NCBI GenBank assembly: GCA_017456585.1
Contig: JAFTJD010000046.1
Location: forward strand, 1-64,000
DNA length: 64,000 bases
DNA from: Lachnospiraceae bacterium
GTDB taxonomy: Bacteria > Bacillota > Clostridia > Lachnospirales > Lachnospiraceae
Reading direction: 5' to 3'
Part shown: piece by piece, positions 16,279 to 59,070 of the stretch
How positions within the stretch are numbered: position 1 is the first letter of the stretch
Layout: every line of letters begins with the position of its first letter
Notes under the pieces: generated by a model
Told to the model about the DNA's origin: nothing
Databases searched by the model: none
The model's input: the letters and a program-made list of their open reading frames with translations, nothing else
Position numbers and translations under genes: made by a program

Positions 16279-16357
16279 GTGCCCTGTTGCTTCTTTCATA
16301 TGTACTCTTTGTCGGATTGTCCGGTAAAGAGTCCATATGAAAGAAGCAACAGGGCAC
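16279..16357. terminator. Long perfect inverted repeat, probable two-way terminator
   Basis: Arms of 24 bp pair without mismatch (16279-16302 with 16334-16357). After one mismatch the stem continues for 7 bp (ACTCTTT/AAAGAGT) and ends in a small CGGA-TTG-TCCG hairpin. It sits between the convergent nptA-like and heparinase-like genes. The T tracts are short, and the stem is far longer than terminators usually need. Confidence 0.6.
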
Positions 16358-20240: not shown

Positions 20241-20547
20241 CTCCAATTTTACAGCCTAAAGAGTGAAATACCATTACCAAGCTGTAAAAATTGGAGAAGG
20301 CACGGCTAAATTACCTACTGAACAAAGAGCTCTTGAGCTCCGGTAGGTAATTTCGCCGTGCCTTTTCTAATTTATACCCACTGGTCAACGAGTTTACTGG
20401 CTCCGGTAGGTAATTTAGCCGTGCCTTTTCTAATTTTTACCTACTGCTCAACGAGGTCGCAGGCTCCGGTAGGTAATTTCACTGTAATTTTACTGGTTTT
20501 TACCTACTGGGAGTAAGAGAAAGCACCGGCTAGTAGGTAAAAACCAG
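20241..20547. repeat. Tandem hairpin array 1 (63-bp period, CCTACT...GGTAGG units)
   Basis: This fills most of the 479-bp gap (20203-20681) between GH35 and the GNAT gene, where no coding region is visible. First comes a hairpin with arms CTCCAATTTTACAGC / GCTGTAAAAATTGGAG (20241-20255, 20281-20296). Then a 23-bp-arm hairpin (20297-20319 with 20342-20364), one mismatch and one wobble. The block CCGGTAGGTAATTT recurs at 20340, 20403 and 20466, exactly 63 bp apart. A last unit has perfect 16-bp arms (20493-20508 with 20532-20547). Each unit places CCTACT about 34 nt from a GTAGG arm. The spacer-plus-palindrome build is unlike CRISPR. Confidence 0.85.
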
Positions 20548-45227: not shown

Positions 45228-45423
45228 TTAATCCTACCGAATTGGCGAGAGAAAGCTTGTAAGGTAGGACGAAAGTGAGGAATAATGGAAGTTAATCCTA
45301 CCGAATTGGCGAGAGAAAGCTTGTGAGGTAGGACGAGAGTGAGGAATAGTGGAAATCAATCCTACTGAGATACGTCAGAAGAATGATTATAGGGTAGGGC
45401 GAAAGAAATGAATAATGAAAATT
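45228..45423. repeat. Tandem hairpin array 2 (64-bp period, CCTACC...GGTAGG units)
   Basis: Three direct copies begin with ATCCTAC at 45231, 45295 and 45359, exactly 64 bp apart. Copies 1 and 2 differ at a few positions; copy 3 is more diverged. Each has CCTACC/CCTACT pairing with GGTAGG about 36 nt further on, followed by a G/A-rich tail (GACGAAAGTGAGGAATAATG). This array and two terminators fill the 421-bp gap 45077-45497, in which no gene is visible. Confidence 0.85.
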
Positions 45424-45427
45424 AAGA

Positions 45428-57774: not shown

Positions 57775-58704
57775 ATGCCTGGTCTATCCACACATTATCT
57801 TTTCGGAATAAAAGCATTAAAGAATATTAAAGGTAGTAAGCTTCACGCATTAATCAAGGAATATCCTTGTGTGTATGCCTTGGGGCAGCAAGGACCGGAT
57901 TTACTTTTTTATTACCCGTCTTATATAAAAAATGGAAATATTGGGGTTCGCATGCATGAAGAACGTACTGCAGATTTTTTTCACAGTATGCTCAAATATA
58001 TAGATAAATATTCAGAAAATGAAAGGGAGAGGAATGTTCTTATTGTCTATTTTGCCGGATTTCTCGGACATTACGTTTTAGACCGCACTTTTCACCCTTA
58101 TGTATATGCCTTTTCGACAGAGGGGTGCACGCTCAAGCAGCATGGAAGACATTTTAAGATAGAAGCAGATATAGATGCTTATTTTTTAAAGAATATTAAG
58201 AAAACTCATCCAGGTTTTTTTAAAGGCGGTAAGACGCTTGCTTTATCACCATGGGAAGAAAATGCTATAATTCATATGTTGAGGAATGTGATATTTTACA
58301 CATACGGAGAAAAACTAGGCAGGCGCCGATTGAAAATCACCCTTTGTATTATGCGCATGGTGCATGCACTACTTAGAGATAAACGGGGGATAAAGAAGAG
58401 GCTTATTACATCCGTAGAAGCAAAAATGCTTGGATTCCAGTTGCTTGGAGGATTGGTGCCCGAATACAGAGAAAACAAAAAAAGCAAGGCAACACTTAAT
58501 ATTTCCCGCGATAACTGGAAGAGTCCATGGGAGGATGAAGAGAGAAACAAATCTGTTCCGGATATGCTTCGTGCAGCAAAAGAGGAATATACCGGTATTC
58601 TTATGGAACTGGATTCCTTGCTTGCAGGTTTGGGTAAAGATAAAAAGAAATTTATTGATTTCATAGGGTGTTATTCTTATAAGACCGGAAGGCTAGTCTT
58701 ATAA
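57775..58704 (+). CDS. Zinc-dependent phospholipase C-like protein
   Basis: A 309-residue protein of the Zn_dep_PLPC family. It begins MPGLSTHYLFGIKAL, with the family's early His, then QQGPDLLFYYPSY, HEERTADFFH, and the metal-binding block GHYVLDRTFHPYVYAF followed by KIEADIDAYFL. No signal peptide, so it differs from secreted clostridial toxins and is more likely a cytoplasmic hydrolase of unknown substrate. GGGGGAAT stands before ATG 57775. Its stop codon lies in the first copy of a 20-bp tandem repeat, and a long hairpin array follows. Confidence 0.85.
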   Translation: MPGLSTHYLFGIKALKNIKGSKLHALIKEYPCVYALGQQGPDLLFYYPSYIKNGNIGVRMHEERTADFFHSMLKYIDKYSENERERNVLIVYFAGFLGHYVLDRTFHPYVYAFSTEGCTLKQHGRHFKIEADIDAYFLKNIKKTHPGFFKGGKTLALSPWEENAIIHMLRNVIFYTYGEKLGRRRLKITLCIMRMVHALLRDKRGIKKRLITSVEAKMLGFQLLGGLVPEYRENKKSKATLNISRDNWKSPWEDEERNKSVPDMLRAAKEEYTGILMELDSLLAGLGKDKKKFIDFIGCYSYKTGRLVL

Positions 58705-58757
58705 TCTATGGTGTTATCTTATAATCTATGGCGTTATCTTATAATCTATGGCGTTAT
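58698..58757. repeat. Three tandem 20-bp repeats
   Basis: CTTATAATCTATGGYGTTAT occurs at 58698, 58718 and 58738. Copies 2 and 3 are identical and copy 1 differs by one base. The first copy contains the stop codon of the phospholipase C-like gene. Confidence 0.95.
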
Positions 58758-58776: not shown

Positions 58777-58818
58777 TTTACAGCCTGACGACTAGGTTTG
58801 CGTGAGTCAGACTGTAAA
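58777..58818. repeat. Hairpin TTTACAGCCTGAC...GTCAGACTGTAAA
   Basis: 13-nt arms (58777-58789 with 58806-58818) with one mismatch. It resembles the hairpin at 20241-20296 (TTTTACAGCCT...GCTGTAAAA) and, as there, stands directly before a 63-bp hairpin array. Confidence 0.7.
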
Positions 58819-58840
58819 ATCATCATGACGATTCAGAGAA

Positions 58841-59070
58841 TTACCTACTGAGAAGTATCTAGGCTGGTGCCGGTAGGTAAAAAGTCCAGAATAAATCGTA
58901 GAATTACCTACTGAGAAGTATCTAGGCTGGTAACAGTAGGTAAAAAGTCCAGAATAAATCGTAGAATTACCTACTGAGAAGTATCTAGGCTGGTAACAGT
59001 AGGTAAAAAGTCCAAAATAAATCATAGAATTACCTACTGGGAAGTATCTAGGCTGGTAACAGTAGGTAAA
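58841..59070. repeat. Tandem hairpin array 3 (63-bp period, four units)
   Basis: TTACCTACTG begins at 58841, 58904, 58967 and 59030, exactly 63 bp apart. In units 2-4 it pairs perfectly with CAGTAGGTAA; in unit 1 the right arm is CGGTAGGTAA, so one pair becomes G-U. Loop (AGAAGTATCTAGGCTGGT) and spacer (AAAGTCCAGAATAAATC) are nearly constant. With the repeats upstream it fills most of the 632-bp gap 58705-59336. Because 63 is a multiple of three, the minus strand stays open across it, but that frame is just the repeat translated. Confidence 0.95.

Follow-up and report, generated by a model that had tools for sequence, protein, structure and literature searches.

Helically spaced palindrome arrays in a Lachnospiraceae genome and their candidate PD-(D/E)XK nuclease partner

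The window analysed here is a 64,000-nucleotide stretch of a Lachnospiraceae bacterium genome (assembly GCA_017456585.1; positions 1 to 64,000 of contig JAFTJD010000046.1, here C40), and our subject is two 63-bp tandem arrays of palindromic units within it, near 20.3 and 58.8 kb, each bordered by a hairpin with a different stem. The hairpin proves to be the outermost unit of its array, and arrays of this type are paired, here and in relatives, with the gene for a nuclease-like protein. The two window arrays are gene-less satellites that share their stem with a nuclease-linked array at C48 in the same assembly (2.22 Mb in 86 contigs, 76% complete). On balance we favour a reading in which a single-gene PD-(D/E)XK nuclease system targets the arrays and probably also produces them, the odd hairpin being the oldest or outermost unit.

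The hairpin as the end unit of its array

A first-pass annotation of the window described a hairpin directly upstream of a 63-bp array at two loci, in the same orientation, and proposed a defined element made of a fixed leader hairpin, or head, and a repeated body. The hairpin is present at both loci (20250-20286 and 58779-58816), adjoins the array each time and leads into TACCTACT...GTAGGTA units spaced 63 bp apart (Table 1). Array hairpins of this type have 11 matches in the window against 0.02 expected; the 9-mer TTTACAGCC is by itself unremarkable, with 2 occurrences against 0.54 expected. Genome-wide, a pattern search located the TACAGCCT palindromic core at exactly three places (20250, 58779 and C42:288-327), and the reversed control pattern had no matches. 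All three adjoin an array, each at its end; free copies, which the annotation had named as a refutation, are absent.

The hairpin adjoins the array, but as its first unit and not as a structure ahead of it. Each TACAGCCT unit is in register with the next core, at 62 bp (20250), 63 bp (58779) and 63 bp (C42:289), the 62-bp value reflecting one missing interior base. The linker behind the hairpin is homologous to the array's own linker, most clearly at C42. Stems change in both arms jointly, giving the pairs TACCTACT/AGTAGGTA, TACCGCCT/AGGCGGTA and TACAGCCT/AGGCTGTA. In the 46 distinct units of the genome, the stem is paired in 97% of cells, and 24 cells are altered on both sides, compared with 6.0 in shuffles (none of 500 reached 24); this signal is lost when the partner is slid by 1-3 columns. 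With its register, homologous linker and compensated stem, the odd hairpin is the array's edge unit, an outermost unit with an older or different stem and no separate leader, and we hold this conclusion with high confidence.

A fixed head followed by a body would account for the terminal position of all three TACAGCCT units, but it fits poorly with their register and homologous linkers, and with the remaining arrays. Most of the roughly ten array loci in the genome have no TACAGCCT unit, an outcome that the annotation had itself named as a refutation: those at C26, C36 and C48 terminate in TACCGCCT units, and those at C66 and C77 have neither type at their ends. Apparently lone TACCGCCT hairpin matches occur at C12 and C81. 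The orientation claimed for the two window loci holds for the side on which the hairpin stands but not for the linkers, which run one way in the C36, C48, C66, C77, C83 and 58.8-kb arrays, the opposite way at C26 and C42, and in mixed directions in the 20.3-kb array. The C42 and 58.8-kb arrays run in opposite directions, and by linker orientation their TACAGCCT units lie at opposite ends; since orientations differ in this way, the TACAGCCT units mark no single defined element end. Dispersal and a variable number of units survive from the original proposal, the fixed head does not, and we regard a leader hairpin as very unlikely.

Units within one array are nearly identical. From locus to locus in this genome the interior varies and the stem does not, and the same is true of G009, with a gene-less array at C83; the stem is thus the part conserved in trans. 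Just before the 58.8-kb array, at 58697-58757, a 20-bp repeat, TCTTATAATCTATGGCGTTA, occurs three times; it spans the stop codon of the upstream gene and lies about 20 bp from the array.

Table 1. Array units in the window. Cores are given as left arm, interior length in bp and right arm.
Feature	Coordinates	Strand	Description
End unit, first array	20250..20286	+	37-bp core TACAGCCT-21-AAGCTGTA; next core 62 bp on
Unit core, first array	20312..20349	-	TACCTACT-22-GGTAGGTA; linker after core reversed
Unit core, first array	20375..20412	-	TACCCACT-22-GGTAGGTA; stem with one additional mismatch
Unit core, first array	20438..20475	-	TACCTACT-22-GGTAGGTA
Final unit core, first array	20501..20539	+	TACCTACT-23-AGTAGGTA; forward, so the array is of mixed orientation
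End unit, second array	58779..58816	+	38-bp core TACAGCCT-22-AGACTGTA; next core exactly 63 bp on
Unit core, second array	58842..58879	+	TACCTACT-22-GGTAGGTA
Unit core, second array	58905..58942	+	TACCTACT-22-AGTAGGTA
Unit core, second array	58968..59005	+	TACCTACT-22-AGTAGGTA
Final unit core, second array	59031..59068	+	TACCTACT-22-AGTAGGTA
Third array, sister family	45232..45424	+	Three 64-bp units, stem TCCTACC/GGTAGGA; first two cores 38 bp

A nuclease-like gene paired with the arrays

At C48 a single unannotated open reading frame (265 aa; L023:245-1042) breaks the array, so that units stand on either side of it, and the final upstream unit stops about 20 bp before the start codon. Searches of Pfam, NCBIfam and PDB sequences with the protein gave no credible match. 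An alignment of the family shows an invariant RSKxE...YE...PDF...EH-G pattern, and the C-terminal half matches PADLOC PDC-S68 in 57 of 57 members (best 8e-33) and HEAT_CxxC_PDDEXK in 31 of 57 (best 4e-8). The nuclease domain also matches phage Holliday-junction resolvase and endonuclease families. The AlphaFold model is of high confidence (pLDDT 95.5), and Foldseek returned weak matches to restriction-enzyme- and resolvase-like folds. By homology and predicted fold, the C48 protein falls in the PD-(D/E)XK nuclease superfamily. PDC-S68 itself, a PADLOC candidate defence protein of about 1200 aa, ends with this nuclease domain. An AP2/integrase-like N-terminal DNA-binding domain, proposed from strand order alone, drew an empty fold search and is not claimed.

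Relatives of the protein occur in Lachnospiraceae, Butyrivibrio, Treponema and Fibrobacter. We collected homologues from 200 family genomes, 61 of which carry one, and from the GTDB collection (Lachnospiraceae, Butyrivibrio, Treponema, Fibrobacter and others); the two sets overlap in part (for example, L162 is L042). In the first set, 54 of the 69 homologues with enough sequence had tandem periodicity upstream; downstream the figure was 14 of 71, and among random control windows from the same genomes 2 of 120. The second set gave 40 of 76 upstream and 10 of 77 downstream. Both sets together place a tandem array within 700 bp upstream of 94 of 145 testable homologues. These upstream arrays are mostly unrelated in sequence and alike in geometry. 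The nuclease gene and the array are paired, a conclusion that we consider nearly certain. A contig ends within about 700 bp of many homologues, as though arrays break short-read assemblies. A second homologue in this genome (C67:20496-21546, L030) is accompanied, at a contig end, by a repeat of about 64 bp and unrelated sequence, which suggests two independent gene-array systems in one genome.

The pairing extends to the stem itself. The closest relative in a GTDB scan, L126, from a metagenome-assembled Lachnospiraceae genome of roe-deer rectum, is 53% identical and has a 63-bp array with stem TACCTACT/AGTAGGTA that reaches the gene's start codon. In G227 the same stem stands directly upstream of a 54%-identical homologue, again up to the start codon. 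The TACCTACT/AGTAGGTA stem was found in only 3 of 396 other family genomes (G227, G125 and G137), and all three carry the nuclease, against a base rate of 61 in 200. G096, a genome of the same genus that is 99% complete, has neither the nuclease gene nor TACC-type hairpins. The annotation had proposed comparing sites with and without the element: in G096 the orthologues of the genes flanking the 20.3-kb array lie about 160 bp apart with no array between them, and the flanks of the 58.8-kb site are not syntenic.

These comparisons bear on whether the nuclease is a passenger, with the arrays an older repeat family that has its own means of spreading and a homing-type gene that settles in them. 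The C48 gene does split its array, and most arrays in this genome are gene-less. Such a passenger would nonetheless leave unexplained a family-wide association that lies chiefly on the 5′ side, an array sequence that tracks the protein, and a congener, G096, that lacks array and gene alike; we judge it improbable.

The chief rival to our reading, which retains the phased binding, is defence. Here the protein would be an anti-phage effector nuclease and the array a phased operator, or a self-tag that keeps the nuclease harmless on the chromosome, with dispersed arrays as further sinks. Arrays lie in the promoter region near the ribosome-binding site, the nuclease domain is common to the candidate defence proteins PDC-S68 and PDC-S69, and cooperative repression classically makes use of in-phase operators. 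The neighbourhood of the gene speaks against defence: we found no conserved neighbour or partner gene, recurrent neighbours are few (guaA, an ABC transporter, tuf/fusA and holA, named by eye), and most neighbours are housekeeping genes. Moreover, gene-less arrays outnumber gene-linked ones in this genome, and the stem is common to the closest relatives, which a simple autoregulator spread over the genome would not need. We therefore consider a defence role unlikely, if worth keeping in view. No full-length protein was found on plasmids or in IMG/VR, where matches were partial and confined to the nuclease domain, and a phage collection gave a single match, to an unannotated clone of 4.2 kb in which no array was detected.

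Unit geometry and a proposed mechanism

Unit lengths were analysed in 87 upstream arrays, after periods above 100 bp had been treated as harmonics and halved. They fall into clusters of 51-54, 61-64, 72-75, 84-86 and 95-96 bp and are described by 10.50n + 0.47 with n = 5-9 (residual standard deviation 0.97); the best modulus is 10.6 (R = 0.86). A tree of the 87 proteins requires at least 24 changes of n, for instance between 53 and 75 bp within one well-supported clade (L049, L181), so the steps do not descend from one inherited length. The spirochaete members (L138, L156 and L200; Treponema, Treponemataceae) have the longest units, at 86 and 95-96 bp (8 and 9 turns), and their arms are long and perfect, for example TACGGACGAAAT.

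In the best-defined units, the core starts with TAC, ends with GTA and has arms of 8 bp around an interior of about 22 bp. Of 77 array consensuses, 29 yield a TAC...GTA core that spans 36-39 bp and has complementary arms, compared with 0.3 (at most 1) in shuffles, and none of the 64 outer triplets scores higher than TAC. The core stays at about 38 bp while the linker lengthens by whole turns. Constant arm spacing was rejected as the cause of the phasing, the arms being spaced more loosely than the period. A single-stranded or RNA hairpin needs no helical steps, whereas a protein that meets its neighbour along a duplex does; this argues for duplex binding, and the sites are probably recognised as phased, double-stranded DNA.

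The same geometry weighs on two further readings. Elements of the repetitive extragenic palindrome (REP) or bacterial interspersed mosaic element (BIME) type are moved by REP-associated tyrosine transposases (RAYT, HUH Y1 enzymes) acting on single-stranded hairpins, and the present arrays resemble them in being intergenic, palindromic, dispersed and clustered, with a covarying stem and, at 20.3 kb, mixed orientation. The linked gene is PD-(D/E)XK-like and not HUH, however, the stem ends in TAC/GTA around a 22-base interior with no GTAG- or CGTC-tagged short hairpin, and quantisation by helical turns indicates duplex DNA, so that a RAYT-type origin has very little probability. A guide-RNA array of CRISPR- or TIGR-like type, with the 22-base interior as the guide, would suit the regular unit length and the adjoining nuclease gene. 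Yet there is no spacer diversity, since units in an array are nearly identical; two interiors had no exact match in 2.9 million viral contigs, few sequences having been tried; and RNA does not explain steps of 10.5 bp. Rfam families had no match in the window or in arrays at the other scanned loci. We find guide RNAs scarcely credible here.

For the nuclease reading, in which the protein would spread or maintain the arrays, we propose the following sequence of events. A dimeric protein would bind both arms of each core in double-stranded DNA, and adjacent cores, facing one side of the helix, would allow bound proteins to touch or synapse. The nuclease would then cut or nick cores, and recombination-dependent repair at the break would add units, homogenise the interior of the array and occasionally seed new arrays. 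Homogenisation would be weakest at the ends, where units would keep the older stems TACAGCCT and TACCGCCT; the different hairpin at an array's edge would be there because end units escape homogenisation. That the nuclease drives amplification and spread of the arrays is possible, though we advance it with some reserve. More tentatively still, the arrays may represent widespread self-propagating repeats, in which a stand-alone PD-(D/E)XK nuclease acts on helically phased palindromes, cutting and repair amplify and seed arrays, and enzyme and palindrome co-evolve.

Several observations count against this account. Neither a target-site duplication, which the annotation had suggested looking for, nor a precise insertion was seen when the 20.3-kb site was compared with G096, where the flanks are too diverged for a duplication to be called. 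Roughly one in three of the homologues whose upstream sequence could be used shows no array. Periodicity was scored by a simple ungapped autocorrelation (self-comparison) of the upstream sequence. The naive Rayleigh value for the periods takes no account of relatedness, and the count of changes on the tree is the more reliable test. In 48 of 77 arrays the consensus did not yield the TAC core, and the distance between arms is held less tightly than the period. In the protein, the PD and E of the active site are invariant, but the K position is not conserved and an invariant His follows the Glu; because the classical lysine is not conserved, catalysis is presumed and activity uncertain. Finally, a fold search of PDB with the N-terminal domain, expected to bind DNA, gave no match.

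Other repeats and comparison with known systems

The third array in Table 1 has a relative at C10:7298 (L026). No nuclease homologue was found alongside this TCCTACC/GGTAGGA family, whose cognate gene may fall in the missing quarter of the assembly. Other inverted repeats are also present. One very strong example, at 16279-16357, has 38-nt arms and a 3-nt loop and lies between convergent genes. A further long one (AACTTG.TAACATGCAC... / ...GTGCATGTTACCAAGTT), at about 3228-3350 of L020, lies beside the C26 array and seems to be a different element.

No description of a nuclease-palindrome array system was found in the open-access literature, which yielded only papers on REP/RAYT, TIGR-Tas, candidate RNAs and CRISPR, subscription papers being outside the scope of the search. 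On that search, the combination of a nuclease with helically phased palindrome arrays appears to be undescribed. The nuclease family, large and uncharacterised, is present in gut and rumen bacteria, in 61 of the 200 family genomes sampled and at more than 570 loci in GTDB genomes. If our reading is correct, it carries its own targets in readable form, and since the nuclease comes with its target sequences, its binding specificity would be predictable from the genome. With unit lengths held to whole turns of the helix and sequences free to drift, the arrays would then preserve an unusually clear natural trace of how proteins touch one another along DNA. Many of the tandem arrays at which short-read assemblies of these bacteria break may also be due to the system.

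The arrays share features with several known systems. Like REP, REPIN and BIME elements with their RAYT (TnpA-REP), they are dispersed, clustered intergenic palindromes with a single cognate nuclease gene, and relatives of that gene are paired with different palindromes. Here, by contrast, the gene is PD-(D/E)XK-like, the core is about 38 bp (8-bp arms, 22-bp interior, TAC/GTA ends), and units are arranged head to tail at a whole number of helical turns. CRISPR and TIGR-Tas likewise place regular repeats beside a nuclease gene; the present arrays differ in lacking variable spacers within an array, in a unit of 53-96 bp that changes in helical steps, and in a protein with no detected guide-binding domain. 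Homing endonucleases are also small single-gene nucleases that spread by break repair, but no intron, intein or allelic empty-site homing was seen here, and the target-like tandem array also occurs without the gene. PDC-S68, PDC-S69 and HEAT_CxxC_PDDEXK have a homologous C-terminal PD-(D/E)XK domain; compared with PDC-S68, whose models are about 1200 aa, the array-linked protein stands alone at about 265 aa, with its own N-terminal domain and an array. Iterons, centromere-like phased arrays and looped operators are protein-binding sites repeated in helical phase, and they belong to replication, partition or repressor proteins. The arrays described here differ from these in that the linked gene is nuclease-like and the arrays are dispersed through the genome.
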